A stretch of DNA of 64,000 nt, from NCBI GenBank assembly GCA_027489355.1, contig JAIXZY010000077.1:166339-230338 (forward strand), given 5' to 3'. This document shows positions 10,230 to 57,431 of the stretch, in pieces. The position numbers and the translations under genes were made by a program. The number at the start of each line of letters is the position of its first letter. Positions within the stretch are counted from its first letter, which is position 1. This stretch comes from Paracoccaceae bacterium (GTDB taxonomy: Bacteria > Pseudomonadota > Alphaproteobacteria > Rhodobacterales > Rhodobacteraceae). Under the pieces are notes generated by a model. It ran no database searches. It was not told where the DNA came from and saw only the letters and a program-made list of their open reading frames with translations.

Positions 10230-10303
10230 TGTCCACGGTGGACAATCCCGGCTTTGTCTTGCAGATCAAAGACTTGGCCGCGGGCCGTAACGGTTTGTGA
10301 ACC
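10230..10303 (+). repeat. 74-bp conserved intergenic element, copy A
   Basis: Starts with the perfect 15-bp palindrome TGTCCACGGTGGACA (10230-10244). The conserved core GATCAAAGACTTGG lies 19 bases further on, and the element ends with GTAACGGTTTGTGAAC. It aligns without any gap to 24474-24547 and to the reverse complement of 57358-57431. It lies between TIGR02302 and the DUF1624 gene, outside coding sequence if the latter starts at 10186. Confidence 0.75.
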
Positions 10304-10355
10304 ATGCCGCGCGGCGTCGGGCAGCGTCACCGCCAACCGTCACAAGCCTGGGGCG

Positions 10356-12953
10356 TCAAAACATCTGCAACAGGCGCTTGAGGTAATCCAGCTCTTCCAG
10401 CGGTCGGGTCAGTTCGCCAGAGCGGCGGCGGATCTCGTCCAGGAGTTCCTGCGCGCGTTCGTCGGGGGTGTTCTGCACCATGTTCTCGTCCGAGCCGATG
10501 CGGGCAGTTTCTCCCGGGCGGCGGCCCAGCGGGTCGGTGCCCTGCGGATCGGCCGAGCCGAGGTCCTGCTCGCCACCCTGACCGTCGCGGTTCTGGCGCT
10601 GTTCGTCCGCAAGCGCCTCGCCGAAGTCGCGCATCCCGTCGCGGAGCGCCTCCATCGCTTCGGCCTGGCGGTCGAGCGCGCCGTCGAGGTCGCCATTGCG
10701 CAGGGCGTCCTCGGCTTCTTCCATCGCGCGGCCGGCGCGGTCGAGGTTGCGGCGACCCTCTTCGCCCTGCTCGGTCCCGTCGCCGGGAAGCTGGCCCTGC
10801 TGCAGATCGTTCAGTCGCTCGCGGAGTTCGCGCTGGCGGTCGGACAGCGAGCCGCCCTGGCCGTCGCCATCCTGGTTCTGCGCCTGGTCCTGGCCCTGGC
10901 CGTCCTGGTCCCCGGGCTGACCCTGGCCCTGCTGGTCGCCGGGCTGCTGGCCCTCGCCCTGGTTCTGGCCTTGCTGCTCGCCGTCGCGCGGTACGCCTTG
11001 CAAGTCGCGGAAGGCGTCGTCGGACAACTGTTGCTGGTCGCGAAGGGTTTCGCCCATCTCGCCCATCGGGCCGTCCTGGCCCTGCCCTTGGCCCTGGCCC
11101 TGCACCACCTGCATGTTCTGCATCAGCTGGCGGAGCTGCTCCATCAACTCGGCGGCTTCGGCGGTCTTGCCCTGCTCCATCAGCTCTTGCAGCTTGTCGA
11201 GCATTTCCTGCAATTGGTCGCCGGACATCATCTGGCCTTGCATCATCTGCTGCTGCTGTTGGTCGCCCGGGTTGCGCTGCGATTCTTCGGCCAGTTCGCG
11301 CATGTATTCGTTCAGCGCCTGCTGCATTTCCTTCATCAGCTGGTCGATCTCTTCCGGAGAGGCACCGTTTTCAATCGCTTCCTGAAGGCGGTCCTGCGCG
11401 CGTTGCAGGCGGTCCAGCGCGGACTGGAGGTTCCCCTCTTCCACCATCAGGGCGATGGTCCAGAGCTTTTCGGCGATCGCGTCGCGGTCTTCGGTCGACA
11501 GCGCGGCCTCTTTGGCTTCCAGGTCGCGCATCAGCACGCGCAGGTGCAGGAAAGCGCGGTCGTGGCGGATGAAGCCTTCGGAGCGGTTGGTGACGGCCTT
11601 GAGGATCTGCACCGCGCGGGGGGCGTTCACCCGGTTCCACAGGATGTCGCGGCGCATTTCGATCAGCGCGGCGGCGAGCGGGTCGAAGAAGCGTTTGCCG
11701 TGGAGGACGACCTGGTAGGGGGCAGAGGTGCCTTCGTTCCCGGCGGCGTCGACCACGGCAAAGACCATCGTCACGGGCAGGTTGGCGAAGACGTGTTTCG
11801 ACAGGTCGTCGACGAGGGTGGAGGTCAGTTCCGTCCGCTTGCCCTTGCGCGGCATCGGCAGGTCGAGGGTGACGGGCTCCATCGCCTCGGGGTCGACGGC
11901 AAGGCCGTAGCGGCGATCGGCCTTGGCAAGGTCGAGGCTGATCGTCACCCGGCCGGCGGTGACTCCATAGTCGTCCGAGGCGTTGAACGCCTGTTTGAAG
12001 CGGCCGTCGGCCTCGCGCACCATGTCGCCGGTGATCTCGACGGTGGGGGCGTTGTCGGGCGTGGCGGTGATCTGCCAGGTGCGGCCGCCGCTTCCCTGGA
12101 TCGACAGCTCACCCGAGCGGGTGATGGTCAGGTCGTGGACGCCCGCCATCGCGTTCGGAACGGCCGCGGTGGGGGTGGCTGCGGTGCCGGGGGCGGGCGT
12201 GGTCGGCGGGGGGACATCGGCGACGGTCTGGCTGACGGTCAGGTCGCCCTCGGGGCCGTAGAGGCGGATCTGCACGCGGGTTCCGGTGGGAACCTCAAGC
12301 GCGGGGTCGGTGATGTCGTTCAGGTAGAGCGAGGGCTTCCCCGTATAGGCCGGGGGCTGGGCCCAGGCCTCCCATGCCGGGCCGCCGGGCATCGCGACCG
12401 CGGCACCGGGAGTGAGGCCTGCGACCGACCCGGCCTTCCAGAAGGACCCGAACAGCGCGGCCATGACGAAGGCGGTCAGCGCGACGTAGCGCAGCGAGAA
12501 GCGGTCGCGCGAGGACAGGCGCAGGTCGGGCTGAACGGGTCTTGCGCCTGCGGCGCGGGCGGCCATCCTCTCCTGGTGCGCGCGCCAGACGGCGAGCGAG
12601 GCCGGATCGCCGGTGCCGATCGCCTGGGTGTCGCGCAGGGCGGCGATGGGGCGACCGGGCATGGTGCTGTCCAGCCGGTCAAGCGCGTCCATCGCGGTGG
12701 GGCGGCGGAACTGCCTTGCGCCCCAGGCCAGAAGCGCAAGCGCAGCGACGGCAACGGCGGCCCCGGCGGCCTGGGCATAGTGAAGCGGTCCGAGGTCGTG
12801 GACGCCAAAGGCCAGTGCGGCAAGGGTCATCAGCGCCAGCGACCAGAGCGGCCAGAAGGCGCGGGCCAGACGTTCCGCCCACAGCCCCGCAAGCGTCAGG
12901 CGCATCGGCCAGACGAGGGATTTCAGGGGCGGTTGGGTCTTGGGTCCGGTCAT
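10356..12953 (-). CDS. TIGR02302 family (DUF4175) membrane protein
   Basis: 865 residues. Two membrane segments lie in the N-terminal 90 residues (about 33-52 and 57-77) and a third at about 150-170. A large extracytoplasmic domain follows (about 190-560, containing PPAYTGKPSLYLNDI), then a long Gln/Gly-rich, coiled-coil-forming tail with QGQGQGQ and GDQQGQGQPGD stretches (about 560-830). This matches the alphaproteobacterial family TIGR02302, whose function is unknown. It follows lysA with a gap of 27 bases on the same strand, a neighbourhood common in Rhodobacteraceae as I remember it. The Gln-rich region produces long meaningless open frames on the opposite strand. Confidence 0.9.
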   Translation of the reverse strand: MTGPKTQPPLKSLVWPMRLTLAGLWAERLARAFWPLWSLALMTLAALAFGVHDLGPLHYAQAAGAAVAVAALALLAWGARQFRRPTAMDALDRLDSTMPGRPIAALRDTQAIGTGDPASLAVWRAHQERMAARAAGARPVQPDLRLSSRDRFSLRYVALTAFVMAALFGSFWKAGSVAGLTPGAAVAMPGGPAWEAWAQPPAYTGKPSLYLNDITDPALEVPTGTRVQIRLYGPEGDLTVSQTVADVPPPTTPAPGTAATPTAAVPNAMAGVHDLTITRSGELSIQGSGGRTWQITATPDNAPTVEITGDMVREADGRFKQAFNASDDYGVTAGRVTISLDLAKADRRYGLAVDPEAMEPVTLDLPMPRKGKRTELTSTLVDDLSKHVFANLPVTMVFAVVDAAGNEGTSAPYQVVLHGKRFFDPLAAALIEMRRDILWNRVNAPRAVQILKAVTNRSEGFIRHDRAFLHLRVLMRDLEAKEAALSTEDRDAIAEKLWTIALMVEEGNLQSALDRLQRAQDRLQEAIENGASPEEIDQLMKEMQQALNEYMRELAEESQRNPGDQQQQQMMQGQMMSGDQLQEMLDKLQELMEQGKTAEAAELMEQLRQLMQNMQVVQGQGQGQGQDGPMGEMGETLRDQQQLSDDAFRDLQGVPRDGEQQGQNQGEGQQPGDQQGQGQPGDQDGQGQDQAQNQDGDGQGGSLSDRQRELRERLNDLQQGQLPGDGTEQGEEGRRNLDRAGRAMEEAEDALRNGDLDGALDRQAEAMEALRDGMRDFGEALADEQRQNRDGQGGEQDLGSADPQGTDPLGRRPGETARIGSDENMVQNTPDERAQELLDEIRRRSGELTRPLEELDYLKRLLQMF

Positions 12954-12980
12954 GTCACCTGCCTGGGACCGGACAGGGTG

Positions 12981-14246
12981 TCACAGCCACGACGGGATGG
13001 TATCGCGCTTGAGGATTTCGTCAAAGCTTGGACGCGCCCGAATGACAGCGAAGTGATCCCCGTTGACTAGCACCTCGGGGATAAGCGGCCGAGTATTGTA
13101 TTCCGACGCCATGACCGCGCCGTAGGCCCCGGCGCTGCGGAAGGCGACAAGGTCTCCTTCCGCGACCAGGGGCAGGTCGCGGCCCTTGGCGAAGGTGTCG
13201 CCGGTTTCGCAGACCGGGCCGACGATGTCGAATTCCTGCGTGGGGGCGGCGACGGGAGGCTCCATGACGGGGACGATGTCGTGGTGCGCGCCGTACATCG
13301 AGGGGCGGACGAGGTCGTTCATTGCGGCGTCGAGGATCAGGAAGTCGCGGCCCTCGCCGTTCTTGACGTAGATGACCGAGGCGACCAGCAGCCCCGCATT
13401 GCCCGAGATCAGGCGGCCGGGTTCGATTTCCACCTCGCAGCCAAGGTCGCCCACGGTGCGCTTGATGAGCGCGCCGTAGTCGGTGGGCAGCGGCGGGGCT
13501 TCGTTTGACCGGGTGTAGGGGATGCCCAGCCCGCCCCCGAGGTCGAGGCGGGTGATGGTGTGGCCCTCGGACCGCAGGCGGCGGGTCAGGTCCGCGATCT
13601 TGAGGTAGGCCTGTTCGAAGGGTTCAAGCTCGGTCAGTTGCGAGCCGATGTGGACGTCGATGCCGACGACTTGCAGGCCCGGCAGGCGCGCGGCCTCGGC
13701 ATAGACCTGCGAGGCGCGGGCGATGGGGATGCCGAACTTGTTTTCCTTTTTCCCCGTGGCGATCTTTTCGTGGGTCTTGGCGTCGACGTCCGGGTTGACG
13801 CGGACGGCGATGGGAGCGGTTACGCCAAGCGAGGTGGCGATTTCGGACAGCGCCCGCATCTCGGGTTCGGATTCCACGTTGAACTGCCGTATGCCGCCGG
13901 TCAGGGCCAGCCGCATCTCCTCGCGCGTTTTTCCCACGCCGGAGAAGACGATGCGGTCGCCCGGGACGCCCGCCGCCTTGGCGCGCAGGTATTCGCCGCC
14001 CGAGACCACGTCCATTCCGGCGCCGAGGTTGCCGAGGGTCTTCAGGACGGCGACGTTCGACAGCGACTTGATGGCGAAGCAGACGAGGTGGGGAAGGGGC
14101 GACAGCGCCTCGGTGAACAGGCGGTAGTGCCGGGTCAGGGTGGCGGTGGAGTAGACGTAGAACGGGGTGCCGACCTGGGCCGCGATCTCGGTCAGGGCGA
14201 CGTCCTCGGCGTGGAGGGTGCCGTTCTTGTAGAGGAAATGGTCCAT
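12981..14246 (-). CDS. lysA: Diaminopimelate decarboxylase
   Basis: 421 residues, the normal family length. Final step of lysine biosynthesis: decarboxylation of meso-diaminopimelate with pyridoxal phosphate. The PLP lysine sits in VCFAIKSLSN near residue 60; the glycine-rich phosphate-binding LDLGGGLGIPY is at about 226-236, and the second-subunit active-site motif GPVCETGDTFA at about 342-352. The ATG at 14246 gives the expected N-terminus. Upstream lies the triple-hairpin repeat at 14302-14369, which separates it from the CDF gene. Confidence 0.97.
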   Translation of the reverse strand: MDHFLYKNGTLHAEDVALTEIAAQVGTPFYVYSTATLTRHYRLFTEALSPLPHLVCFAIKSLSNVAVLKTLGNLGAGMDVVSGGEYLRAKAAGVPGDRIVFSGVGKTREEMRLALTGGIRQFNVESEPEMRALSEIATSLGVTAPIAVRVNPDVDAKTHEKIATGKKENKFGIPIARASQVYAEAARLPGLQVVGIDVHIGSQLTELEPFEQAYLKIADLTRRLRSEGHTITRLDLGGGLGIPYTRSNEAPPLPTDYGALIKRTVGDLGCEVEIEPGRLISGNAGLLVASVIYVKNGEGRDFLILDAAMNDLVRPSMYGAHHDIVPVMEPPVAAPTQEFDIVGPVCETGDTFAKGRDLPLVAEGDLVAFRSAGAYGAVMASEYNTRPLIPEVLVNGDHFAVIRARPSFDEILKRDTIPSWL

Positions 14247-14301
14247 GCGTCGTCCCCGTGCTTCCGCGCCGTCATAGCCGGGGGCGGGACGGCTGCAAAG
14301 G

Positions 14302-14369
14302 ACGATTTCTTCGAAGAAATCGTGACGGAGCCTTTGAAGGCTCCGGTCCGGAATTTTTGAAAATTCCGG
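14302..14369. repeat. Triple-hairpin cassette, copy 1
   Basis: Three consecutive palindromes: 14302-14323 (22 bp, perfect, centred on TTCGAA), 14327-14344 (GGAGCC-TTTGAA-GGCTCC) and 14348-14369 (ten-base arms CCGGAATTTT/AAAATTCCGG). The same three, in the same order and with the same spacing, recur at 31501-31568 with compensating changes in the arms. The cassette sits immediately behind the CDF gene's stop and upstream of lysA, so it may act as a terminator, an mRNA-end protector or a REP-like element. Confidence 0.8.
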
Positions 14370-14372
14370 GCG

Positions 14373-14951
14373 TCAGGGCGCGGCGGACCTGCCTTCTTCG
14401 TGGGCGGCTTCCCAGACCTCATGCGCGGCGTCGAGGTTCATGGCGGCGATCACAAGGCCGACGAGGATGTCGGGCCAGATCGAGGGGTAGCTGGCGGTGA
14501 CCAGACCGGCGGCGATGATGCCGACGTTCGCCAGCGCGTCGTTGCGGGCCGAGAGGAAGGCGGCGCGGGTGAGCGAGCCTTCTGCCTTGCGGTGGCGCGC
14601 CAGCAGGAGCGCGGCGGTCAGGTTCACGGCCAGCGCACCAAGGCCGACAAAGGTCAGCGCCTCGGCGGTGGGGGGAGTGGGGTGCATCAGCTTCATGCCC
14701 AGCGTCCACAGGAAGGCCGCCGCCGGGACCAGAAGCAGCGCGGCCAGCACCTTGCCCACGGCGGCGCGGCGGGTGGCGGTCCAGGTCAGGGCGAAGAAGA
14801 TCAGGATGTTGACGGCCGCGTCTTCCAGGAAATCGGCGCTGTCGGCCAGAAGGGAGACCGAGCCCGCCTTCAGCGCCGCGACGAACTCGACCCCGAAATA
14901 GGCAAGGTTCAGCGCGGCGACGATCAGGACGGTCTGCCGAAGGCCGGGCAT
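14373..14951 (-). CDS. Short cation-diffusion-facilitator-like transporter (192 aa)
   Basis: Five or six hydrophobic segments. LLADSADFLEDA in the second segment and ARNDALANVG in the fifth correspond to the metal-site positions of CDF transporters, although the usual His of HxxxD is replaced by Leu/Asn. The cytoplasmic C-terminal metal-sensing domain of full-length CDF proteins (about 300 aa) is absent; the protein stops soon after the last span with a His-containing tail. Probably a divalent cation exporter relative; the substrate is unknown. Start overlaps the DUF2834 stop by one base (TGATG). Confidence 0.75.
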   Translation of the reverse strand: MPGLRQTVLIVAALNLAYFGVEFVAALKAGSVSLLADSADFLEDAAVNILIFFALTWTATRRAAVGKVLAALLLVPAAAFLWTLGMKLMHPTPPTAEALTFVGLGALAVNLTAALLLARHRKAEGSLTRAAFLSARNDALANVGIIAAGLVTASYPSIWPDILVGLVIAAMNLDAAHEVWEAAHEEGRSAAP

Positions 14952-15265
14952 CAGGCGCGGCCGGACCGCAGGAAGAGGTACAGCGGCAGCCCGCAGCTGA
15001 CGCCGATGCAGAAGGTCGCGGGGATCGCGATCAGGTGCGCCCAGGCGCGGCGAGAGATCGCCTCGGCCAGGACCCAGACGGTCAGGGCCAGGGCGGCGAT
15101 GGTCAGGTCCCAGGTCAGGCCGGTGGTCGAGGCGTTGACATACCAGGCGTCGATCAGGCCGCCAAGGCCGGTCTCGGTTTCGCGCATGTGCGTCAGGAAC
15201 CAGTACATCGGATGCACCGCGCCCCAGACGGCCAGCGCCAGGAAGGCAAGGCGCAGCGGGGTCAC
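14951..15265 (-). CDS. DUF2834 domain membrane protein (104 aa)
   Basis: Three hydrophobic segments (about residues 5-22, 52-71, 77-96) with the family-like TTGLTWDLTIAALALTVW. DUF2834 is a small family of unknown function. The start is GTG at 15265, overlapping the preceding lipoprotein stop as GTGA; its end overlaps the CDF gene start. The tight arrangement argues for one transcript with the lipoproteins and the CDF gene. Confidence 0.8.
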   Translation of the reverse strand: MTPLRLAFLALAVWGAVHPMYWFLTHMRETETGLGGLIDAWYVNASTTGLTWDLTIAALALTVWVLAEAISRRAWAHLIAIPATFCIGVSCGLPLYLFLRSGRA

Positions 15266-15390
15266 TTCAGCACCACGCCGACCTGCGCCTCGCCCGAGAT
15301 GGTGATCCCCGGCTTGGTCGGCGGCTCGGGCGCGCCGTCGGCTCCGCAGGCGGCAAGGGCAAGGCAGGCGAGAAGGATCAGGCGGGGCAT
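15262..15390 (-). CDS. Very small lipoprotein (42 aa)
   Basis: ATG at 15390 (MPRLILLACLALAACGADG): a signal peptide with lipobox LAAC, so the mature part is under 30 residues and anchored by an acylated Cys. The mature part is Pro-rich. Function unknown. It lies between another small lipoprotein and DUF2834 and is coupled to the latter by GTGA. Confidence 0.65.
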   Translation of the reverse strand: MPRLILLACLALAACGADGAPEPPTKPGITISGEAQVGVVLK

Positions 15391-15401
15391 GATGACCTCG
15401 G

Positions 15402-15554
15402 TTAGGGTTGCACGCTGACGTTGGCCTTGCCGATCTCGCCCGACAAGGTCGGGTTTACCGATACGCCGTCCTCGCCGAAGGAGAAGTCGGTCGAGAGCAT
15501 CGGGTTCGAACAGGCGGCCAGGGCCAGCAGGGCGAGCAAGAGCAGGGGCTTCAT
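15402..15554 (-). CDS. Very small lipoprotein downstream of argH (50 aa)
   Basis: ATG at 15554 (MKPLLLLALLALAACSNPML) with a clear lipobox LAAC at residues 12-15; the mature peptide has about 36 residues and ends VSVQP before TAA. It lies 45 bases behind the argH stop codon. A tiny lipoprotein directly after argH is a recurring arrangement in Rhodobacteraceae as I remember it; its function is unknown. Confidence 0.65.
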   Translation of the reverse strand: MKPLLLLALLALAACSNPMLSTDFSFGEDGVSVNPTLSGEIGKANVSVQP

Positions 15555-15599
15555 CGGGGGACTCCTTCGCGGCCGAAGCTAGCACCCCGGCCGGAAATG

Positions 15600-17003
15600 T
15601 CACCCCAGCGCGGCACGCCAGCGGGCGATCTGGGCGCGAACCTGGTCAGGCGCGGTGCCGCCATAGGAGGTGCGGCTGCGGACCGAGTTTTCCACCCCGA
15701 GGACCGAGTAGATTTCCTGGGTGATGCCGGGGTGGACGCTGTTCATCTCTTGCAGCGACAGTTCCGGCAGGTCGCAGCCCTTCTTCTCGGCCATGGCCAC
15801 CAGCGTCCCGGTGACATGGTGCGCCTCGCGGAAGGGAAGGTTCAGCGCGCGGACCAGCCAGTCGGCCAGGTCGGTCGCGGTCGAGAAGCCCGAGGCGGCG
15901 GCGGCCTTCAGCACCTCGCGGTTGGCGGTCATGTCGCTGACCATTCCGGTCATCGCGGCAAGGCCCAGCATGAGGCTGTCGGCGGCGTCGAAGACCTGTT
16001 CCTTGTCTTCCTGCATGTCCTTGGAATAGGTCAGCGCCAGGCCCTTCATGACCGTGAACAGCGCGACGGTCGCGCCAAGGATGCGCCCCAGCTTGGCGCG
16101 CAGAAGCTCGGCCGCGTCGGGGTTCTTCTTCTGCGGCATGATGCTGGACCCGGTGGTCCAGCGGTCGGAGAGGCGGACGAAGCGGAACTGGGCAGAGGAC
16201 CAGATCACCAGCTCTTCGGCGAAGCGCGACAGGTGCATGGCGCAGATCGAGGCGGCCGACAGGAACTCCAGCGCGAAGTCGCGGTCGCTGACCGAATCAA
16301 GGCTGTTGGCGGTGGGCCGGTCGAAGCCAAGCGCCTTGGCGGTCATGTGGCGGTCGATCGGGAAGCTTGTCCCCGCCAGCGCGGCGGCGCCGAGCGGGCA
16401 TTCGTTCATGCGATTGCGGGCGTCCTGAAAGCGCGACCGGTCGCGGGCCAGCATCTCGACATAGGCCATCATGTGGTGGCCCCAGGTGACGGGCTGGGCG
16501 GTCTGGAGGTGGGTGAAGCCGGGCATCACCCAGTCGGCCCCGGCCTCGGCCTGGGACAGGAAAGCTTGCATCAGCCCGGTCAGCCCGGCGATGGCCTGGT
16601 CGCACTGGTCGCGGACCCAGAGGCGGAAGTCGACGGCGACCTGGTCGTTGCGCGACCGCCCGGTGTGCAGGCGCTTGCCCGCCTCGCCGATGCGGTCGGT
16701 CAGGCGGGCTTCGATGTTCAGGTGGATGTCTTCCAAGTCGGGCGTGAAGGGGAATGTCCCGGCCTCGATCTCTGACAAGATCGAGAGGAGGCCTTCCCCA
16801 ATCGCCTGCGCGTCCTTATCAGTCAGGATGCCCTGCGCCGCGAGCATTGCCGCATGGGCCCGGCTGCCCGCGATGTCCTGGGCGTAGAGCCGCTGGTCGA
16901 ACCCGATCGAGGCGTTGATCGCCGTCATGATCGCGTCCGGCCCGCTGGCGAAGCGCCCGCCCCACATGGTGTTGGCGGCTTTCGAATCGCGGGGATCGGA
17001 CAT
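15600..17003 (-). CDS. argH: Argininosuccinate lyase
   Basis: 467 residues from ATG 17003 ([18 protein letters not shown]); a much longer open frame upstream is antisense to tlpA and is rejected. Splits argininosuccinate to arginine and fumarate, the last step of arginine synthesis; cytosolic homotetramer. Visible family motifs: GGRFASGPD at the N-terminus, [17 protein letters not shown] (about residues 109-125), and the signature [12 protein letters not shown] (about 282-293). Divergent from tlpA, with about 24 bases between starts. Confidence 0.97.
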
Positions 17004-17027
17004 GGCTGGGCCTTTGGAGTGAGAAAC

Positions 17028-17567
17028 GTGCGGAAATTGCTGGCAGTCCTCTACACGGCCTTCCTGATCGGTGCAAATCCGGGCTTCGCCGATGTTGCAG
17101 CCTTGCGCGAGGGCGACATGAAGAAGCTGGCCCTGCACGAGGCCCCGGTGGCAATCCCCGAGGTGGTGCTGCTGGACGCCGAGGATGGGGAACATTCGCT
17201 GGCGGAGTACCGCGGCAAATGGGTGGTGCTGAACTTCTGGGCGACCTGGTGCGCCCCCTGCCGGCGCGAGATGCCGTCGCTGGAACGGCTGCAGGCGGCG
17301 ATGCCGGAACTGGCGGTGGTGCCGGTGGCAACGGGGCGCAATGCGGTCGAGGGCATCCGGCGGTTCTTCGACGAGGCCGGGGTGAAGGCCCTGCCGATCC
17401 TGCGCGATCCGCAGTCCGAACTGGCGCGGGGCATGGGGGTCATGGGCCTGCCGGTGACGGTCATCCTGAACCCCGAGGGGCAAGAGGTCGCCCGACTGAT
17501 CGGAGATGCGGAATGGGACAGCGACAGCGCCAAGGCGGTGCTGGGCGCGCTGGTCGCGGGGCAGTAG
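17028..17567 (+). CDS. TlpA-type thiol-disulfide oxidoreductase
   Basis: The GTG at 17028 has GGAG eight bases upstream; an in-frame GTG at 17019 is possible but too close to that site. The 179-residue product has an N-terminal signal sequence or anchor ([15 protein letters not shown]...), then a thioredoxin fold with [14 protein letters not shown] (redox CxxC) and the cis-Pro loop [10 protein letters not shown]. This is the periplasmic TlpA family, reductants used in cytochrome c or oxidase maturation and general disulfide reduction. It diverges from argH. Confidence 0.88.
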
Positions 17568-18017: not shown

Positions 18018-18074
18018 GTCCTACCCCCTTCGCTGCCCAGTGGAGTGAGCGGGCATGGGGCGGATTTGTTCCCG

Positions 18075-19442: not shown

Positions 19443-19471
19443 CAAAAAAAGGCCGGGCAAGAAGCCCGGCC
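19443..19471 (-). terminator. Intrinsic terminator, proximal of a tandem pair
   Basis: Eight-base arms GGCCGGGC (19451-19458) and GCCCGGCC (19464-19471), loop of five bases, followed on the minus strand by TTTTTTT. It is oriented to end transcripts coming from the CenR-like gene or from a small RNA lying between them. Confidence 0.85.
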
Positions 19472-19545
19472 AGGTCCAACAGGGAGGATGCCGCGCCATG
19501 ACCCCGACGCGACCAGGGGAACTTGCTGCACAACCGGTGCATGTG
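19443..19545 (-). ncRNA. Candidate small RNA ending at the proximal terminator
   Basis: The minus-strand segment ahead of the terminator carries GCATCCTCCCTG, a pyrimidine-rich anti-Shine-Dalgarno-like stretch, just before the hairpin, reminiscent of CCUCC-type regulatory RNAs of Rhodobacter. No convincing promoter could be fixed by eye, so it may be only the 3' end of the regulator mRNA. The evidence is the strong terminator about 180 bases from the nearest stop codon plus the C-rich motif. Confidence 0.25.
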
Positions 19546-22597: not shown

Positions 22598-24472
22598 ATG
22601 GCGTCAGGTCGCAGCGCAGAGGATGAGATTTTCGACCTGCGGCTGGCCCGCTCGGCCCCTGATCTGTTCCCGATGATCGAGGCGCTTTATGGCACGCACC
22701 GGGACTATCCGGCGTTCCGGGACAAGCTGGTGAAGGCCCTGCGCAAGGGTTTTGCCGACCGTCCGGCCGACCTGAAGCGGCTCGACCTCCAGCGCGACCT
22801 GGAGCCGGACTGGTTCCAGCGGCCGGACATGGCGGGGTATGTGTTCTACATCGACCGTTTCAACGGCACCCTGAAGGGCGTGCTGGAGAAGCTGGATTAC
22901 CTGGCCGATCTCGGAATCACCTACGTCCACCTGATGCCCTGCCTCAAGCCGCGGCCCGGAGACAGTGACGGCGGCTATTCGGTGATGGACTACCGCCAGA
23001 TCAACCCGGCCTTCGGAACGATGGAGGATTTCGAGGCGGTCAGCGCCGCGCTGCGGGCACGGGGCATCTCGCTTTGCGTGGACCTGGTGCTGAACCACAC
23101 GGCCAAGGAGCACGCCTGGGCGAAGAAGGCGGCGAAGGGGGATCCGAAGTATCAGGACTACTACCTGATGTTCGACACGCCGGACATGCCGACCCTGTAC
23201 GAGCAGACGCTGGTCGAGGTCTTCCCCGACAACGCGCCGGGCAACTTCACGCATTACCCCGAGATCGGAAAATGGGTCTGGACCACCTTCAACGAACACC
23301 AGTGGGACCTGAACTGGGCCAACCCGGCGGTCTTTCTGGAGATCGTCGAGGTCATGCTGTTCCTCGCCAACAAGGGCGTCGATGTCCTGCGGCTGGATGC
23401 GGTCGCCTTCATGTGGAAGCGGCTGGGGACACGCTGCCAGTCCGAGCCGGAGGTCCACATGATCCTCCAGGCGCTGCGGGCCTGCTCGCGCATCGCCTCG
23501 GCGGCGGTGATCCACCTGGAAGAGGCGATCGTCGCGCCGGCAGAGATGCTGCCCTACCTGGGTCGCGGCCGGCATGACGGGAAGGAGGGGAACCTCGCCT
23601 ACCACAACTCCCTGATGGTGCAGTTCTGGTCGGCGCTGGCGACGCGGGATGTGCGGCTGATGCGGCATGTGCTGGGGACGCATTTCCCGGACCGGCTGAC
23701 CAACGCGACCTACGCGACCTACATCCGTTGCCACGACGACATCGGCTGGGCGGTGACCGACGAGGACGCGGCAGCGGTGGGGGTGTCGGGGCAGGGGCAC
23801 CGCGCCTTCCTGTCGGACTTCTACGAGGGGTCGTTCCCCGGCGCTTTCGCGAAGGGGGCGCTGTTTCAGGAGAATCCGCTGACCGGGGACAAGCGGATCT
23901 CGGGGTCGTTCGCCAGCCTGGCGGGGCTGGAGACGGCGCGGGACGGGCGGGAGGAGGATCTGGCGGTGCAGCGGATCCTGATGGGGCACGCGCTGATCGC
24001 GGCCTGGGGCGGGATTCCGCTGGTCTACATGGGCGACGAGCTGGCGCTGAAGAACGACTACGGATACCTCGACACCCCCCACCACGCGCATGACAGCCGC
24101 TGGGTGCACCGGCCGCGGATGGACTGGGACCTTGCCGCGGCGCGGGAGAGCGGGGAGGGACCCTCGGCGCGGGTGTTCCGGGGGGTGCGGCATATCCTGG
24201 CGCGGCGGCGGGCGACGGCGGAGTTGCATGCGGGCAACCCGGTGCGGGTCGCGGCCTTGGGGAACGACGCGGTGCTGGCCTTCCAGCGGGTCGCGCCGAC
24301 CGGCGTGCTGCTGGGGCTCTTCAACTTCACCGAAGAATGGCAGCACCTGCCGGAAGGCTGGGTCCGGGCGCTGGGGGTCAGCCGGATGTGGGACGCCCTG
24401 TCCGAGGCCGAGGTTGCCCTGCATGGCGGGCAGGTCGTGCTGCCGCCCTATGGAAGGGTCTGGCTGCTGTAG
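22598..24472 (+). CDS. Amylosucrase (GH13)
   Basis: 624 residues from ATG 22598 with GGGGGGA upstream; the open frame extends further 5' but without family similarity. Catalytic features of GH13 amylosucrases: nucleophile Asp in GVDVLRLDAVAFMWKRLG (about residue 268), general acid Glu in VIHLEEAIVAP (about 309), stabilising Asp in YIRCHDDIGW (about 376), the earlier DLVLNHTAKEH and the late PLVYMGDELAL. It transfers glucose from sucrose to an alpha-1,4-glucan. No sucrose transporter or glycogen gene is next to it. The 74-bp element begins two bases after the stop codon. Confidence 0.9.
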   Translation: MASGRSAEDEIFDLRLARSAPDLFPMIEALYGTHRDYPAFRDKLVKALRKGFADRPADLKRLDLQRDLEPDWFQRPDMAGYVFYIDRFNGTLKGVLEKLDYLADLGITYVHLMPCLKPRPGDSDGGYSVMDYRQINPAFGTMEDFEAVSAALRARGISLCVDLVLNHTAKEHAWAKKAAKGDPKYQDYYLMFDTPDMPTLYEQTLVEVFPDNAPGNFTHYPEIGKWVWTTFNEHQWDLNWANPAVFLEIVEVMLFLANKGVDVLRLDAVAFMWKRLGTRCQSEPEVHMILQALRACSRIASAAVIHLEEAIVAPAEMLPYLGRGRHDGKEGNLAYHNSLMVQFWSALATRDVRLMRHVLGTHFPDRLTNATYATYIRCHDDIGWAVTDEDAAAVGVSGQGHRAFLSDFYEGSFPGAFAKGALFQENPLTGDKRISGSFASLAGLETARDGREEDLAVQRILMGHALIAAWGGIPLVYMGDELALKNDYGYLDTPHHAHDSRWVHRPRMDWDLAAARESGEGPSARVFRGVRHILARRRATAELHAGNPVRVAALGNDAVLAFQRVAPTGVLLGLFNFTEEWQHLPEGWVRALGVSRMWDALSEAEVALHGGQVVLPPYGRVWLL

Positions 24473-24473
24473 C

Positions 24474-24547
24474 TGTCCACGGTGGACATTTTAGGTTTGC
24501 CTATTTGAATCAGGGAGATGCCTGCGGACGTTAGGGGTTTGTTAAGG
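24474..24547 (+). repeat. 74-bp conserved intergenic element, copy B
   Basis: Perfect palindrome TGTCCACGGTGGACA at 24474-24488, core GAATCAGGGAGATG with the same spacing as copies A and C, and terminal GTTAGGGGTTTGTTAAGG. Here the end contains TTAG-N7-TTAA, close to the CtrA-type TTAA-N7-TTAA pattern. It lies between two convergent genes, so it is not a promoter of either. Confidence 0.75.
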
Positions 24548-50084: not shown

Positions 50085-50099
50085 GGGTCCTTTCCGGGC

Positions 50100-51273: not shown

Positions 51274-53105
51274 CTGCGGCCGAACAGGCGTTCGATGTCG
51301 TGGAGCGACAACTCGACATAGGTGGGCCGCCCGTGGTTGCACTGACCGGAAAGCGGCGTCGCCTCCATCTCGCGCAGAAGCGCGTTCATTTCCTCGGGGC
51401 GCATCTGGCGGCCAGAGCGGACCGAGCCCTGGCAGGCCATGCGCGACAGGATCGCGTCGATCTTCGCGCGGACGAGCTGGCTGTCGCCCTGGTCGGCCAG
51501 TTCGTCCAGGATGTCGCGGACCAGCGCCGCGCCGTTGACCTGGCCCAGGATCGCGGGAACTTCGCGGATCGCAACGGCGCTGCCGCCGAAAGGTTCGATC
51601 CCCAGCCCGACCTCGGCCAGCGCCGGGGCGGCGTCGATCAGGCGTGCGGCGTCGTCGGGAGAGAGGTCGACGATCTCGGGGATCAGCAGCGCCTGGGCGC
51701 GGATGCCGGTTTCGGCCATCTGGCGTTTCAGGCGTTCGTAGACGAGCCGTTCGTGGGCGGCGTGCTGGTCGACGATGACGATGCCCGTGGCGGTCTGGGC
51801 GACGATGTAGTTTTCATGCAGCTGCGCGCGGGCGGCGCCCAGGGGATGCGCGGGCGCGTCCTGAACCACGGGGGGCGCGTCCTGGGCGTAGGAGGGGGCC
51901 ATCGGGGCCTCGGCAAAGCCCGCGAAGCTGTCGGGGGCCTGAAAGGCGTAGGCGCGGGCGAAGGTCGAGGGGGCGGGGCGGTCCATCTGGTAGACGCGCG
52001 CGGGTTCGGGGCGGAAGGCGTCAAGCGTGGCTGCGCCGACGGTGGAGGAGGCGCGGTGGCCGGCCCCCGTCAGCGCCGATTTCAGCGCGGTGATGATGAG
52101 GCTGCGGGCCGCGTCTGGTTCGCGGAAGCGGACCTCGGCCTTGGCGGGGTGGACGTTCACGTCAACGCGCTGGGGGTCGGCGATCAGGTTCAGCACCGCC
52201 GCCGGGTGACGGTCGCGGGAAAGGACGTCGAAATAGGCCGCCCGCAGCGCGCCGTAGAGCATCCGGTCCAGCACCGGGCGGCCGTTGACGAAGAGGTACT
52301 GCTGCGCCGATGACCCGCGCGAATAGGTGGGCAGCGCGGCATAGCCTTGCAGGCGCAACCCTTCACGCTCGGCGTCGATGCGCAGCGCATTGTCGATGAA
52401 GTCGCGCCCGATCACCGAGGCAAGGCGCGAGCCCAACGCGTCGAACAGGTCGCCCGTCGCCGGGTCGGCACGGAAGAGGGTGCGCGCCTCACCCCCGGTC
52501 ACGTCGCGCAGCGTGAAGCCCACCAGCGGCTCGGCCATCGCCAGACGGCGGATCACCTCGGTCACCGCCTGCATCTCGGCCCGGTCCGAGCGGAGGAATT
52601 TCAGCCGCGCGGGGGTGGCGAAGAAGAGGTCGCGCAGTTCGACCACCGTGCCACGGGTCAGCGCCGCGGGGCGGACGGGGGCGATCCGGCTGCCCTCACA
52701 GGTGATCTGAGCGGCGTCCCCGTCGGCCCGGCTGGTGATCGTCAGGCGACCCACCGCTCCAAGGCTGGGCAAAGCCTCGCCCCTGAAGCCGAAGCTGCGG
52801 ATATCGAGAAGGTCCGATCCGTCGATCTTGGACGTGGCATGGCGCGAAAGGGCCAAGGGCAGGTCCTCGGCCGTCATGCCGCAGCCGTCGTCGGTGACCC
52901 GGATCAGCGTCTTGCCGCCGTCGGCGATGTCGACCTGGATGCGCGACGCCCCGGCGTCGAGCGCGTTCTCGACCAGCTCTTTCACGGCGCTCGCGGGACG
53001 TTCCACCACCTCGCCCGCCGCAATGCGGTTGATCGCGGCCTCGTCCAGTTGTCGGATCACCGGACGGCCGGAAGCGCCCGTTATCTTGGGGGTGTGAAGC
53101 GTCAT
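51270..53105 (-). CDS. mutL: DNA mismatch repair protein MutL (endonuclease type)
   Basis: 611 residues. GHKL ATPase: [33 protein letters not shown] and FRGEALPS. The C-terminal domain carries [12 protein letters not shown], matching the endonuclease motif DQHA(X)2E(X)4E, and CNHGRPTY near the end. So this MutL itself nicks DNA, as in bacteria without MutH. The central linker is Pro/Ala-rich (about residues 330-420). Confidence 0.96.
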
Positions 53106-53159
53106 GCCGCTATCTGTAGCAGGCGGCCGCGAGTCGGGGAAGAACGAACCGGACTGTGT

Positions 53160-53756
53160 TCAGCTTGCCCGAGGGGCAAAGACGTAAAGGCAGCGGCACG
53201 GCCCTGGCCCGCCGCTCAGACAGGCGTGGGGCATGGCGCCGTCGAAATGGACGGTGTCGCCGGGATGCAGGGTGGCGGGGGCATAGCCCTCGGTGTGCAG
53301 GACGAGCGTGCCGGACAGGACGTGCAGCATGTCGTCGGTGTCGTGTCGGTTCCAGTCCCCGAAGGCGGCAAGGTCGGTCTGGATGAAGTCGACCAGCATC
53401 GACTGGAACGGCCGGCCCTTCAGCGTGGCGCCCAGCGGCCAGAGCAGGGTGTTCGCGTTCTCGATCGCCTCGCCCGGCGCGCCCCGGTCGATCACCATGC
53501 GACCCGCCAGGCTTGGCGTCTCGGCGCGCACCAGGTCGGCCAGGTCGCAGCCGAAGCCCTGTGCCAGCTTCAGGAGGATCTCGAAGGTCGGCGACAGAAG
53601 GCCGTTCTCGATCTTCGACAGGGTGGACCGCGCAAAGCCCGCCCGGTCGGCCAGCGCCTGCTGGTTCCAGCCGCGCGCCTCGCGCCAGCGGCGGATGCGC
53701 GACGCCAGTTCCTGGTGCGGTTCTGCGCTGCGCGGGCGGTCGGTGAGCGGGGCCAT
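53160..53756 (-). CDS. XRE-family regulator with cupin domain
   Basis: 198 residues. N-terminal helix-turn-helix (NQQALADRAGFARSTLSKIE, about residues 32-51), C-terminal cupin with MLHVLSGTLVLHTEG and HPGDTVHFDGAMPHACLSGG. This architecture (SutR/PuuR-like) commonly controls amino-acid or polyamine catabolic genes. It is divergent from the aminotransferase gene, its probable target. Confidence 0.9.
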   Translation of the reverse strand: MAPLTDRPRSAEPHQELASRIRRWREARGWNQQALADRAGFARSTLSKIENGLLSPTFEILLKLAQGFGCDLADLVRAETPSLAGRMVIDRGAPGEAIENANTLLWPLGATLKGRPFQSMLVDFIQTDLAAFGDWNRHDTDDMLHVLSGTLVLHTEGYAPATLHPGDTVHFDGAMPHACLSGGPGPCRCLYVFAPRAS

Positions 53757-53784
53757 GCTGTTCCGTTTGACGACAGGATGTTCC

Positions 53785-53790
53785 TATAAT
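53785..53790 (+). promoter_or_regulatory. Probable -10 element in the regulator/aminotransferase gap
   Basis: TATAAT lies 34 bases before the aminotransferase ATG in an unusually AT-rich stretch. No well-spaced -35 (TTGACG occurs, but only 12 bases upstream) is visible, which would fit an activator-dependent or repressed promoter. Confidence 0.4.
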
Positions 53791-53824
53791 AACAATCGGT
53801 GCAGCAATCACAATGGGGCAACAC

Positions 53825-55147
53825 ATGGCTGGTCCGAAATCGCAAAGTCTGTTCGAACGGGGCATGAAGGTGCTGGTCGAGGGGGTATCCTCGGCCTCCC
53901 GTGGGCCGGCGACCTTTGGCGGCGCGCCGCGCTACATGAGCCACGGGGCGGGGGCGCGGCTCTATGACGTGGACGGCAAGGAATACATCGACTGGATGAT
54001 GGCCTTCGGCGCGTTGCCGCTGGGCCATGCGCATCCCAAGGTCGTGGAAACCGTGGCGCGGGAAGTCGCCCGCGGGACGCATTTCGCCACGGCGCTGGAG
54101 GTCGAGGTCGAGGTGGCCGAGATGCTGGTTGCCCTCCTGCCCCACGTAGACAAGGTGCGCTTCGCCAACACCGGGACCGAGGCCGCGATGGCCGCTTTCC
54201 GGCTGGCGCGGGGGCACACCGGCCGCAGGAAGATCATCAAGTTCGAGGGCCACTATCACGGCTGGTGGGATTCGGTGCTGGTGAACACCAACCCCTATCC
54301 GCCGACGCTGCTGGGCCACCCGAACGACCCGATCCGTATCCCCGACTCCTCCGGCATTCCCGAGGAAGCGTGGAAGGACACCATCGTTTGCCGCTGGAAC
54401 GATATAGACGCGCTGGAGCGGGTGATGGCGCTGCATGGGGACCAGGCGGCTTGCGTCGTGACGGAAGGGGTGATGTCCAACATGGGCGTCATTCCCCCGA
54501 AACCGGGCTACCTGCAGCGGATGCAGGAGCTGTGCCGGAAGCACGGCGCGCTCTTCTATCTGGACGAGACGGTGACGGGCTTCCGCCTGGCGGCCGGGGG
54601 CTGCGCCGAGCTTTACGGGCTGACACCGGACATCGTGACCTATGGCAAGGCGCTGGGTGGGGGCCTGCCGATGGCGATGATCGGCGGGAGGGCGGATGTG
54701 ATGGCGGGCCTCGAATGGGGCAAGGTCCTGCATTTCGGCACCCACAACGCCGGCCGACTGGCGCTGCATGTGACCAAGGTGATGCTGGAGACGATGCTGG
54801 AGGACGATCAGGCGGGGTTCCGGAAGATCAAGGACCTGGGCCTGAAGATGGCCGAGTCGGTCCGCCAGGTCGCCCGCACGTCGAACCGGCACGGGATCGT
54901 GGTGCAGGGCGTCAATTCGATGTTCCAGATCTTCTTCACCGACAAGGATCAGATCGCCGACTACCGCGACTTCTGCAGCCACGTCGACCGGATGAAGTTC
55001 CGCGACTTTGCCCTGCGGCTGATGGACAAGGGCGTCTACATGAACCCCTCGGCCACGCTGCATTCGTTGTCCTCGGTCGCGCATACCGAGGCCGACATCG
55101 CCACCACCGCGCAGGCCATGGCCGAGGTGCTGGAGGAGATGGCGTGA
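53825..55147 (+). CDS. Class-III aminotransferase, glutamate-1-semialdehyde-aminomutase-like
   Basis: 440 residues from ATG 53825 (MAGPKSQSLFERGMKVLV); an ATG four codons earlier is also open. PLP-dependent fold type I: FANTGTEAAMAAFRLARGHT, KFEGHYHGWWDS, LDETVTGFRL, PLP lysine in IVTYGKALGGGLPMAMIGG. HemL-like, but the context is not tetrapyrrole: it is coupled by GTGA to a ProC-like reductase and lies near a lysine-dehydrogenase-like gene. Probably acts on an amino or omega-amino acid; the substrate is unknown. Confidence 0.85.
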   Translation: MAGPKSQSLFERGMKVLVEGVSSASRGPATFGGAPRYMSHGAGARLYDVDGKEYIDWMMAFGALPLGHAHPKVVETVAREVARGTHFATALEVEVEVAEMLVALLPHVDKVRFANTGTEAAMAAFRLARGHTGRRKIIKFEGHYHGWWDSVLVNTNPYPPTLLGHPNDPIRIPDSSGIPEEAWKDTIVCRWNDIDALERVMALHGDQAACVVTEGVMSNMGVIPPKPGYLQRMQELCRKHGALFYLDETVTGFRLAAGGCAELYGLTPDIVTYGKALGGGLPMAMIGGRADVMAGLEWGKVLHFGTHNAGRLALHVTKVMLETMLEDDQAGFRKIKDLGLKMAESVRQVARTSNRHGIVVQGVNSMFQIFFTDKDQIADYRDFCSHVDRMKFRDFALRLMDKGVYMNPSATLHSLSSVAHTEADIATTAQAMAEVLEEMA

Positions 55148-55899
55148 CCACGCTCGGCTTCCTTGGCGCCGGACATCTGGCCGAGCTTCTGGTCCGGGGG
55201 CTGGCGGGGCAGGGGGATCGGCTGGTCCTGTCCCCCCGAAACGCCGAGGTCGCGGCACGGCTGGCGGCCGAGCATGGCTGCGAGGTCGCGTCCAGCAACC
55301 AGGCGGTGGTCGATGCCGCGGATGGGGTTCTGGTCTGCCTCCCCGCCGCGAGTGGCGCAGACGAACTTGCGCGGCTGACCTTCCGCCCCGGCCAGCCGGT
55401 CCTGTCGGCGATGGCGGGGACAGGGCTGGCGCGGCTGCAAGCGGCGATCGGCCCTGCCCGCGCGGCGGTCACGATGATGCCGGGCTATGCCAACGCCTTC
55501 CGCGTCGGCCCCTCGATCCTTTGCCCCGAGGACGGGTTCTGGCACGCGGTGCTTCAGAAACTCGGCCCCGTCATCGCCTTCTCCGATGAAAGCCAGTTCA
55601 CCACCGCCGCCGCCTTCGGTGCCTTTTCGGGCGCCAGCTTCGGCTGGATGGCGCATGTGATCGGCTGGTTCCAGGCCCAGGGCCTGCCCCCCGACACCGC
55701 CCGCACGCTGATCGCCGCCACCCTGCGTGGCAACGCCGAGGTCCTTCTGCGCGAGGACCGCCCGCTGGACGACATCGCCCGCAGTGTCGTCACCCCCGGC
55801 GGGATCAGCGAGATGGTCCTTGCCGCTCTGTCCGCCGGGGATGGCCTGACCGCCTGGGACGTCGGGCTGGACCGCGTGCGCAAGCGCATCGGCGGCTAG
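55144..55899 (+). CDS. Pyrroline-5-carboxylate-reductase-like oxidoreductase
   Basis: 251 residues from GTG 55144, overlapping the aminotransferase stop as GTGA. N-terminal Rossmann motif LGFLGAGHLAELLVRGL; later VTMMPGYANAFRVGPSIL and VVTPGGISEMVLAALSAGDG, the latter equivalent to the ProC signature (TxPGGTTxxGL...). It is a divergent member, so reduction of a cyclic imine such as P5C or piperideine carboxylate is likely but not certain. Confidence 0.85.
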   Translation: MTTLGFLGAGHLAELLVRGLAGQGDRLVLSPRNAEVAARLAAEHGCEVASSNQAVVDAADGVLVCLPAASGADELARLTFRPGQPVLSAMAGTGLARLQAAIGPARAAVTMMPGYANAFRVGPSILCPEDGFWHAVLQKLGPVIAFSDESQFTTAAAFGAFSGASFGWMAHVIGWFQAQGLPPDTARTLIAATLRGNAEVLLREDRPLDDIARSVVTPGGISEMVLAALSAGDGLTAWDVGLDRVRKRIGG

Positions 55900-55923
55900 G
55901 CCCCTCGTCCAGGTCGGCCAGTC

Positions 55924-57003
55924 TTACGCGTGACGGCTGCGGTGGCCGACGGTGTAGTAGTTGCCGGTGCGCGTCTTCAGATAGGGCTCCAGCGGGATCG
56001 CTTCCTGCTTCAGGAAGCCCTGCTGCGGCAGGTGCCCGTCGCGGACCATCTCGATCACGCCAACGACCGAGGCCGAGGTCGTCCAGGCGATCGCGGTGCG
56101 CATCTTGCCGCCGATCTCGATCGGGTAATAGGACCGCACGAATTCCTTGCGACGCAGCTGACCGCCCTGCCAGCCTTCCGCCGCGACATGGACATAGACC
56201 ACGTCCTCGTCGACGGGGGGCTTGGCGTTGGTCAGGATCCTCCCGGCCTCGGCCCGGTTCTCGCGCATCAGAAGCTCGTGGAAGAAGAAATTCATCAGCT
56301 TCACATGGCCCGGATAGCGCATGGTCTTGTAGTCCAGGTTCTCGATCCGGTCGGCATAGGTCTCGCACATCGTCCCCAGCCCGCCCGAGGTGGTGAAGGC
56401 CTCAAGCTGCATGCCGTCGATGTAGATCGTCTCCAGCCATTCCATCGCCGAGACGGTCTTCAGCACGCCTTCCTCGATCACCTCGCAATCGTTGAGGTAT
56501 TCGTTGACCACGCCTTCGGGCGACCAGTTGAACGCATAGCCCAGAAGCCCCGTCGGGTTCTGCGGCAGGGCGCCCACGCGCAGGCGGATCGAGCGGACCT
56601 TGTCGAACTGTTCGGCCAGATGCGCGCCGACGATCCCCACGAAGCCGGGCGCAAGGCCGCATTGCGGGGCCATCAGGCCCTTGGAGGTCGTGGACAGATC
56701 GCGGATATGGCGCGTGGTCGGGACGTCCTCGGTCAAGTCGAAATAGTGCAGCCCCAGCGCATGCGCCACGGTCGAGACGCCGATGTTCAGGTGGAAGGGC
56801 AGGCAGGACAGGACCGCGTCCTGGCCGTTCAGAAGCTCGGTGATGGCCACCGGATCCTGCAGGTCGACGCTGCGGGTGGGAAACGAGGCCTCCAGCTTGC
56901 GCGCATCGACGCCCGTCACCTCGAACCCGGAGTCCACCAGAAGCTCGGCGGCCAGATGGCCGACCTTTCCAAGGCCAAGCACCGCCACTTTCCTGAACGA
57001 CAT
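55924..57003 (-). CDS. Saccharopine/lysine dehydrogenase-family oxidoreductase
   Basis: 359 residues from ATG 57003 (MSFRKVAVLGLGKVGHLAAE); a start 17 codons earlier is rejected. Rossmann fold with GLGKVGHLAAELLVDSGFEV; YFDLTEDVPTTRHIRDLS and PQCGLAPGFVGIVGAHL follow the saccharopine dehydrogenase pattern. Length and pattern also fit L-lysine 6-dehydrogenase, which forms piperideine-6-carboxylate. Convergent with the aminotransferase/ProC-like pair, so all three may serve one lysine or pipecolate pathway. Confidence 0.85.
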   Translation of the reverse strand: MSFRKVAVLGLGKVGHLAAELLVDSGFEVTGVDARKLEASFPTRSVDLQDPVAITELLNGQDAVLSCLPFHLNIGVSTVAHALGLHYFDLTEDVPTTRHIRDLSTTSKGLMAPQCGLAPGFVGIVGAHLAEQFDKVRSIRLRVGALPQNPTGLLGYAFNWSPEGVVNEYLNDCEVIEEGVLKTVSAMEWLETIYIDGMQLEAFTTSGGLGTMCETYADRIENLDYKTMRYPGHVKLMNFFFHELLMRENRAEAGRILTNAKPPVDEDVVYVHVAAEGWQGGQLRRKEFVRSYYPIEIGGKMRTAIAWTTSASVVGVIEMVRDGHLPQQGFLKQEAIPLEPYLKTRTGNYYTVGHRSRHA

Positions 57004-57117
57004 GAGTATTTTCCTTTGCTGGCCGCAGTCTTGCGACGCGGAGATTTCCGGCAAAGGCTAGCGGTGGGAGATGCCGGTCATGCTGGGCCGTTTGGCGAAA
57101 TCACCGGCATAATCTTA

Positions 57118-57144
57118 CAGAATGCCGACCATTTCGGCATTCTG
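57118..57144. promoter_or_regulatory. Perfect 10+10 inverted repeat upstream of the saccharopine-dehydrogenase-like gene
   Basis: CAGAATGCCG-ACCATTT-CGGCATTCTG, 115 bases before the start at 57003. The size and spacing fit an operator for a dimeric regulator (for example Lrp/AsnC or GntR); as RNA it would be a stable hairpin. The rest of the 57004-57189 gap holds nothing else recognisable. Confidence 0.5.
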
Positions 57145-57189
57145 CATGTGTCTTGGCGCGGGGCGGTCGCGGCCCGCGGGTCGGAAGCC

Positions 57190-57333
57190 TTAGAACAGCC
57201 CGTCGCCGCCCTTGTCCTGTTCCACGACTTCGTCCGCGACCACCGCCGCCGCACCACCGACAACAAGCGGGGCACAGCCCGCCAGCGTCAGCATCAGCAG
57301 CGCCGCCATCAGCATCAATCCGGTGTTCTGCAT
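57190..57333 (-). CDS. Very small lipoprotein (47 aa)
   Basis: ATG 57333 with GGGAGAGGCGAGG upstream. Signal peptide and lipobox MLMAALLMLTLAGCAPLVVGG (LAGC), then AAAVVADEVVEQDKGGDGLF. Mature part under 30 residues. The gene stands alone; the 74-bp element (copy C) lies 25 bases ahead of its start, with its TTAA end towards the gene. Confidence 0.65.
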   Translation of the reverse strand: MQNTGLMLMAALLMLTLAGCAPLVVGGAAAVVADEVVEQDKGGDGLF

Positions 57334-57357
57334 CCTCGCCTCTCCCGTATCTGCATG

Positions 57358-57431
57358 TGTTGCGAAACCGTTAACGCCCGAAACCAAGTCCTTGATTCTA
57401 GACCGCTCCCGGCGATTGTCCACCGTGGACA
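57358..57431 (-). repeat. 74-bp conserved intergenic element, copy C
   Basis: Reverse strand: palindrome TGTCCACGGTGGACA (57431-57417), core GAATCAAGGACTTGG, end CGTTAACGGTTTCGCAAC. The best-matched partner of copy A (10230-10303), with no gaps. Lies between cobO and the small lipoprotein gene and could here overlap the lipoprotein's promoter. Confidence 0.75.

Follow-up and report, generated by a model that had tools for sequence, protein, structure and literature searches.

A dispersed three-box element in Rhodobacteraceae and a ParB/Noc-like protein as candidate reader of its changing word

What kind of site is a short intergenic element that recurs, with the same internal spacing, between different genes of one bacterium? 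The stretch analysed here, called the window, covers 64,000 nucleotides of a Paracoccaceae bacterium (assembly GCA_027489355.1, contig JAIXZY010000077.1, positions 166,339 to 230,338; genome G000 below). A sequence-only reading had drawn attention to three 74-bp copies of such an element, and we found their positions and strands as claimed, with the palindrome (hereafter the word), the ATCA core and the end box equally spaced in all three. We show below that the element is dispersed over the genome and that its word has changed in place between related species. We propose that it is probably a parS-like site, assisted by the integration host factor (IHF), whose word is read by X, an orphan second ParB/Noc-family protein. 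The boxes of the three copies, and the gene next to the third, are as follows.

10230..10244, + strand: copy 1, word (palindrome TGTCCACGGTGGACA); from the sequence and a shuffle test
10264..10276, + strand: copy 1, IHF-like box GATCAAAGACTTG, one mismatch to WATCARNNNNTTR; from the sequence, the logo and the IHF consensus
10287..10301, + strand: copy 1, end box GTAACGGTTTGTGAA, degenerate TTAR-N7-TTAA; from the sequence and the logo
24474..24488, + strand: copy 2, word, 1 nt past the stop of an Alpha-amylase-family gene (22673-24472)
24508..24520, + strand: copy 2, IHF-like box AATCAGGGAGATG, one mismatch; from the sequence and the logo
24531..24545, + strand: copy 2, end box TTAGGGGTTTGTTAA (TTAR-N7-TTAA); from the sequence and the logo
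57417..57431, - strand: copy 3, word, 3 nt past the cobO stop codon
57385..57397, - strand: copy 3, IHF-like box AATCAAGGACTTG, full match to WATCARNNNNTTR; from the sequence and the logo
57360..57374, - strand: copy 3, end box TTAACGGTTTCGCAA, degenerate TTAR-N7-TTAA; from the sequence and the logo
57435-58067, - strand: cobO (Pfam CobA_CobO_BtuR); from our own codon-usage gene caller and Pfam

Within the window, TGTCCACGGTGGACA with up to three mismatches has 11 matches against 1.97 expected, and none of 100 shuffles reaches 11. The whole genome holds 75 exact copies, 43 on the plus and 32 on the minus strand, and the reversed control gives 0. Adding three copies with one mismatch, we examined 78 palindromes. 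The downstream module was scored in 76 of them with a leave-one-out weight matrix, and in the other two (L012 and L018) it is visible on reading the opposite orientation, without rescoring; all 78 words have the module and none of these palindromes stands without it. The element is a composite of about 75 bp, made of the palindrome, an IHF-consensus-like box and a TTAR-N7-TTAA-like box at near-fixed spacing. Indeed, the logo of the 78 copies shows a near-invariant word (0-14), a box at 34-46 resembling WATCARNNNNTTR, which we take to be the IHF consensus, and CGTTAR...TTAAC at 55-72; ATCA, CTTGG and CGTTA..TTAA lie at a fixed distance, the offset being 21 in 66 of the 78. TCARNNNNTTR occurs at its proper place in 49/78 (background 0.14% per scanned window), CARNNNNTTR in 65/78, and TTAR-N7-NNAA in 37/78 (background 0.13%). 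Outside the boxes, the copies have diverged. In some copies and species (L022, L073 and others), a unit resembling GGGGCCGCAAGGGACTCC directly precedes the word.

The exact word is found in 6 of 198 family genomes, as a single copy in each except G000. Allowing up to two mismatches, we find it in abundance in some species among 32 same-genus genomes, whereas in others it does not exceed background. We also searched with a model of the module alone, i.e., the 64 bases after the word, the word being excluded, and counted among the best 150 scored candidates per genome. This model finds 27 to 135 copies in 16 of 18 same-genus genomes, the others being G198 with 2 and G209 with 6, and 0 to 5 in 12 genomes of other families. 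Under stricter filters, matches at E 1e-4 were obtained in 7 of 149 family genomes. In a separate scan, most of the named contigs listed as matching the module belong to Tabrizicola or Rhodobacter calidifons.

In same-genus species the words differ (TGTCCACGGTGGACA, GCGCCGCGCGCGGCGC, TGCCCRCGCGYGGGCA, TGTCCACGCGTGGACA, TGTCCCGGGCAGGGACA and others). The words of related species are 15 to 19 bp long, uniform in some species and mixed in others (G207 and G200 hold mixtures and hybrids), and the rest of the element is kept. In other genera, G034 has CGTCCGAGCTCGGACG in 4/4 elements read, with 169 genome sites at up to one mismatch, and G040 and G068 have GTCCC...GGGAC word forms. The word of G135, TTCCC[CA]CTGTGTTAC in 5/5 (L110-L114), is not palindromic, unlike that of every other lineage seen. 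The clearest comparison comes from the cobO end, which we located in 28 of the 32 same-genus genomes. A recognisable element occupies this orthologous place in 21 of the 28, with at least 8 words and a module that is homologous by eye; in the remainder, also judged by eye, G202 retains a word next to a decayed module, and no element is seen in the other six. Neighbouring idiosyncrasies, e.g., GGCAAGA, are common to these elements despite their differing words. The word has changed in place between species, and such a change calls for a reader that changes with it. The start of the word is mostly equidistant from the middle box whether it has 15, 16 or 17 bp (113/123, 25/35; 17-mers mixed), so the right half-site has moved and the left has stayed; some 17-mers are 15-mers with one more matching pair. 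The sequence-only reading was exposed on two points, the existence of further copies in the genome and the conservation of the spacing in relatives; both are found here, and it therefore stands on both.

Which protein could be such a reader? As the anatomy resembles that of the P1 parS site, we searched eight genomes for ParB_N proteins. X, of 275 aa, is encoded at G000:C7:267606-268430, 37 kb past the window end. It accompanies the normal ParB in the element-bearing genomes G000, G211, G203, G191 and G034; in this search, the element-poor G198 and G209 hold the normal ParB only and no X, and G227 has two additional ParB_N proteins that resemble plasmid proteins. PF02195 (ParB_N) scores above its cut-off in three of four X proteins and just below it in that of G203 (25.3 vs 26.3 bits), while X falls below the cut-offs of the NCBIfam Noc model TIGR04285 (35.3 vs 315 bits) and of the NCBIfam RepB model. 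A profile search against solved structures matched Noc and ParB (Noc 7ng0, 3.3e-10). A first structural model from a shallow alignment reached a predicted local distance difference test (pLDDT) of 58.6 with no fold match at E 0.001, and a deeper alignment gave a pLDDT of 91.5, with Noc 7nfu as the best solved Foldseek match (E 4.9e-9), followed by ParB 6sdk and KorB 8qa9. By computation, X thus has a predicted ParB/Noc fold. In the model, an N-terminal ParB domain is followed by a helical one that would bind DNA and by a C-terminal domain of beta-beta-beta-alpha type. The G.RR and ENE.R motifs, which bear on possible CTP binding and clamp closing, are conserved in the X alignment.

Several lines of evidence connect X with the word. 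Full X is present in 19 of the 32 same-genus genomes, fragments in 3 (G208, G210, G213) and none in 10. An element at cobO is found in 17/18 genomes with full X versus 5/10 without (Fisher p 0.013, or 0.003 when the half-decayed G202 is counted as lost). G198, G209, G227 and G234 are both X-less and apparently element-poor, the last two being judged only by cobO and word counts. Moreover, the identity of the X helix-turn-helix (HTH) domain to that of G000 rises with how often the G000 word occurs (rho 0.785, 17 genomes), against a rho of 0.07 for cobO identity, with a partial permutation p of 0.0002 given cobO and of 0.005 given cobO and the X N-domain. Compared with G000, the normal ParB is 88% identical in G211 and 93% in G191, and X 93% and 75%; the order is opposite, so X follows the word and not relatedness. 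In seven species, the HTH of the normal ParB is 85-96% identical, with a nearly invariant recognition helix, whereas that of X varies. We finally used X to predict elements. An X-profile search of the family gave matches in 64/149 genomes, mostly longer plasmid-type proteins, and three genomes of other genera were picked for X (400 kb of G148, 170 kb of G047, 400 kb of G101). With the weight matrix, G047 shows 2 elements (word TGTCCCACGRTGGGACA) and G148 shows 4 (word CGTCCCAYGRTGGGACG), and the X-less control G003 shows none in 400 kb. When exact repeats were counted in G101, G047 and G148, none of the words with 4 copies or more belonged to an element.

We also looked at the distribution of the sites. 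Spacing is more even than random in G034 (93 exact sites among those listed, coefficient of variation (CV) 0.685, 0/5000 random) and on contig C1 of G211 (30 exact sites among those listed, CV 0.60, p 0.0018; with one-mismatch sites, 40 among those listed, CV 0.48, 0/5000 random). In G203, all 66 model matches sit on the 4.19-Mb chromosome, all round it, and show no depletion at the terminus, as inferred from the parB position and GC skew (11/66 sites within 250 kb versus 7.9 expected). Site orientation relative to replication gave 41/66 co-oriented sites in G203 (p 0.064), no more than gene ends might give.

Some observations weigh against the proposal of an IHF-assisted site read by X. The strict forms are in the minority, WATCARNNNNTTR in 25/78 and TTAR-N7-TTAA in 16/78. 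Six element-bearing assemblies have no X (G199, G202, G204, G207, G212 and G232, the element of the last being known only from cobO), and the element-bearing G208, G210 and G213 show X only as fragments; assembly gaps may be the cause, as in several assemblies X is close to the end of a contig. Each of the X-less G022, G028 and G068 gives 1-2 matches to the module, and G101 has an X homologue (266 bits) and no element in 400 kb. In G203, the spacing is not more even than random (CV 0.87, p 0.16). The correlation with the word is not specific to the HTH, since it reaches a rho of 0.76 for the C-domain and 0.58 for the N-domain; with a C-domain value so close to that of the HTH, the link is due in part to descent of the protein as a whole. 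Lastly, G235 combines a G000-type helix with a different word at cobO and a low count of the G000 word, and G237 and G238 have differing helices yet many G000-like words, so the mapping from helix to word is not one to one.

These same facts, namely the six assemblies without X, the X-like genome without elements and the correlation of the whole of X, favor a rival in which another DNA-binding protein reads the word and X only travels along. We consider it unlikely: G198 and G209 have lost X and the elements alike, elements were found in G047 and G148 as X had predicted, and it is only the DNA-reading part of X that varies where the normal ParB does not.

If X is the reader, an X dimer would recognize the word through its central HTH domain, and IHF would bind the middle box and bend the DNA. 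The C-terminal domain of X would then contact the end box, as P1 ParB does its B-box; alternatively, another protein such as CtrA would occupy it. With some 60-170 such complexes along the chromosome, ParB-type clamps would be loaded, and the nucleoid could be organised or anchored at a 25-60 kb scale. We place nucleoid organisation or anchoring first in view of the number of sites, their spread and the orphan ParB, and hold nucleoid occlusion of the Noc kind to be less likely, as the terminus is not spared. The sequence-only reading had offered two proteins binding together, a chromosome-organising site or a small RNA; of these, the first two fit our reading best, with at least two rigidly spaced protein sites and a site acting at chromosome level.

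We compared this system with known ones. In P1 parS, repeats of two kinds flank an IHF site, and P1 ParB reads one box type with its central domain and the other with a C-terminal beta1-beta2-beta3-alpha1 domain (PMC5016525). The anatomy of our element would fit this, with an IHF-like box between the word and the end box as putative protein sites, and for the C-terminal domain of X the model predicts three strands and one helix. P1, however, has a single plasmid parS locus with a ParA partner; we found dozens to more than 100 single chromosomal sites, a species-specific word and no ParA gene beside X in 8 loci inspected (about 1.5 kb on each side).

Noc, the best structural match of X, is also a second chromosomal ParB-family protein without its own ParA and with many dispersed palindromic sites. 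It is reported to be confined to Firmicutes, with binding sites (NBS) that are absent near the terminus and an NBS preference that is conserved among orthologues (PMC7383237, PMC8429893). X, in contrast, occurs in Rhodobacteraceae, and its candidate sites in G203 show no depletion around the inferred terminus. These sites also have an IHF-like box and an end box, and within one genus they vary from species to species. The ParB of Pseudomonas aeruginosa was reported to bind half-parS at hundreds of scattered sites, for which a topological role was proposed (PMC7022226); X would similarly be a ParB-family protein at many dispersed sites, although there it is the normal ParB at a 7-bp half site and here a separate protein at a 75-bp composite one. 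Canonical chromosomal parS sites, few and near the origin, are read by the normal ParB, unlike the 66 sites all round the G203 chromosome, and the normal ParB helix is nearly invariant while the words differ. The closest homologues of X outside the genus group lie on 412 PLSDB plasmids; in 57 of these the coverage is 80% or more, and identity stays below 60% throughout. These are ParB proteins of Rhodobacterales rep-parA-parB plasmids, and two that we inspected have a 17-19 bp palindrome GGTTTCGCNGCGAAACC just after parB, one with a strict IHF consensus 41 bp beyond. On the other hand, such plasmids have 2 palindromes near the par genes, and their proteins are longer than X.

REP (repetitive extragenic palindromic) sequences differ by species, and E. 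coli RIP/RIB elements are IHF-binding REP composites. Our elements resemble RIP/RIB in joining a palindrome to an IHF site in dozens of intergenic copies, although no ParB is involved there and the palindromes are of a different kind. A non-autonomous mobile or REP-like repeat without cellular function would account for the many intergenic copies per genome, for words that differ by species and for the relocation of X itself between species. We nevertheless rate it as quite improbable: the copies have diverged except at the boxes, orthologous positions are kept and only the word changes, spacing is even in two of three genomes, and among the matches listed only 1/128 fetched viral loci (L386) holds a full element. 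On this last count, a phage origin was rejected too.

Position relative to genes bears on the next rival. According to our gene caller, a same-strand gene ends on the left of 60/78 elements; the word begins 0-10 nt past a same-strand stop in 48/78, and 0-20 nt past it in 55 of those 60. The contexts of the 78 are convergent (36), tandem (21), between opposite-strand genes (14), divergent (3) or cut by a contig end (4). In the window, copy 1 is flanked by two minus-strand genes, copy 2 is the one between convergent genes, as had been noticed, and copy 3 directly follows cobO, with the next gene on the same strand. Such positions just past stop codons would suit a transcribed 3'-end element, i.e., an RNA hairpin or terminator, and the words could form short hairpins with compensating changes between species. 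This is very unlikely, since the logo lacks, after the palindrome, the T run that an intrinsic terminator would have, 14/78 copies lie between two opposite-strand genes, the outer pairs are lost in hybrid words like GCGCC...GGGCA, some copies (L106, L112) already follow, by eye, a terminator-like hairpin and T run, and a hairpin does not need uniform sequence within a species. The hybrid words and the copies behind terminator-like sequence also argue against the small RNA first envisaged.

A cell-cycle regulatory site, with CtrA at the end box and a partner at the palindrome, is suggested by the TTAR-N7-TTAA spacing, and a CtrA site CTAAN7TTAAC is reported for a Paracoccus repABC promoter (PMC9040568). 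Of the CtrA-like box first noticed, the spacing is indeed of the CtrA type, and the strict match is confined to the minority given above. We hold this rival to be highly improbable, as it leaves the word dialects unexplained, the palindrome never occurs without the module in the 78 and most elements lie at gene ends, not at promoters. The earlier statement that the element is not simply a promoter agrees with this position, on which a promoter or a CtrA-only site was rejected. A clue to autoregulation was also dropped, since genes with an element in their 5' region read as housekeeping.

Phage attL-type sites also combine core, IHF and arm sites, and this anatomy alone speaks for attachment-like sites of a tyrosine recombinase, an idea with next to no credit because the integrase-family proteins common to the 8 genomes form only two groups, read as XerC and XerD, which the element-poor G198 and G209 also have.

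A literature search of open-licence papers found no description of these elements or of X. If an IHF-assisted site read by X is the right answer, this would be a second, independent ParB paralogue with chromosome-wide sites, outside Firmicutes and with a P1-like IHF-assisted site, and it would give a direct handle on nucleoid organisation in Alphaproteobacteria. As close relatives have different words at the same orthologous places, they would form a natural series for a protein and its many sites changing specificity together. A more speculative history, which we find conceivable and rather doubtful, is that a plasmid-derived ParB was domesticated in Rhodobacteraceae, that its IHF-assisted parS scattered chromosome-wide, and that the protein and about 100 sites repeatedly co-changed specificity into a lineage "password", perhaps separating chromosome, plasmids and relatives.

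The surroundings of X vary by species in our own reading (dnaE, an acyltransferase and others). In G214 (L492), X directly follows a gene resembling, in our reading, the DUF4175 gene that adjoins copy 1 of the window; an element site may therefore be where X landed. The 60 bp upstream of X (CTTAACCC...GCGTTCCCTCC) travel with it. C-terminal X fragments, likely remains of former copies, are found elsewhere, at G000:C61:45025-45177 and in L500 (G237). Downstream of X, GTAG-head hairpin repeats with a REP-like look (GTAGGTCGGGCTTCAGCCCGAC, GTAGGGTGCGCTACAGCGCACC) are present in several species (L477, L479, L488, L493 and others).

In the window, Rfam detects no family at the elements and only a cobalamin riboswitch (RF00174, 77.1 bits, 58104-58303, + strand), near cobO, and the small RNA SorX (RF02784, 75.4 bits, 19445-19519, - strand). 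The stretch fetched from G101 (L535-L544 region) carries an array of clustered regularly interspaced short palindromic repeats (CRISPR), whose repeat ends in GGGGGCGCGGATTGAAAC and whose 15-mers occur in 22-23 copies.

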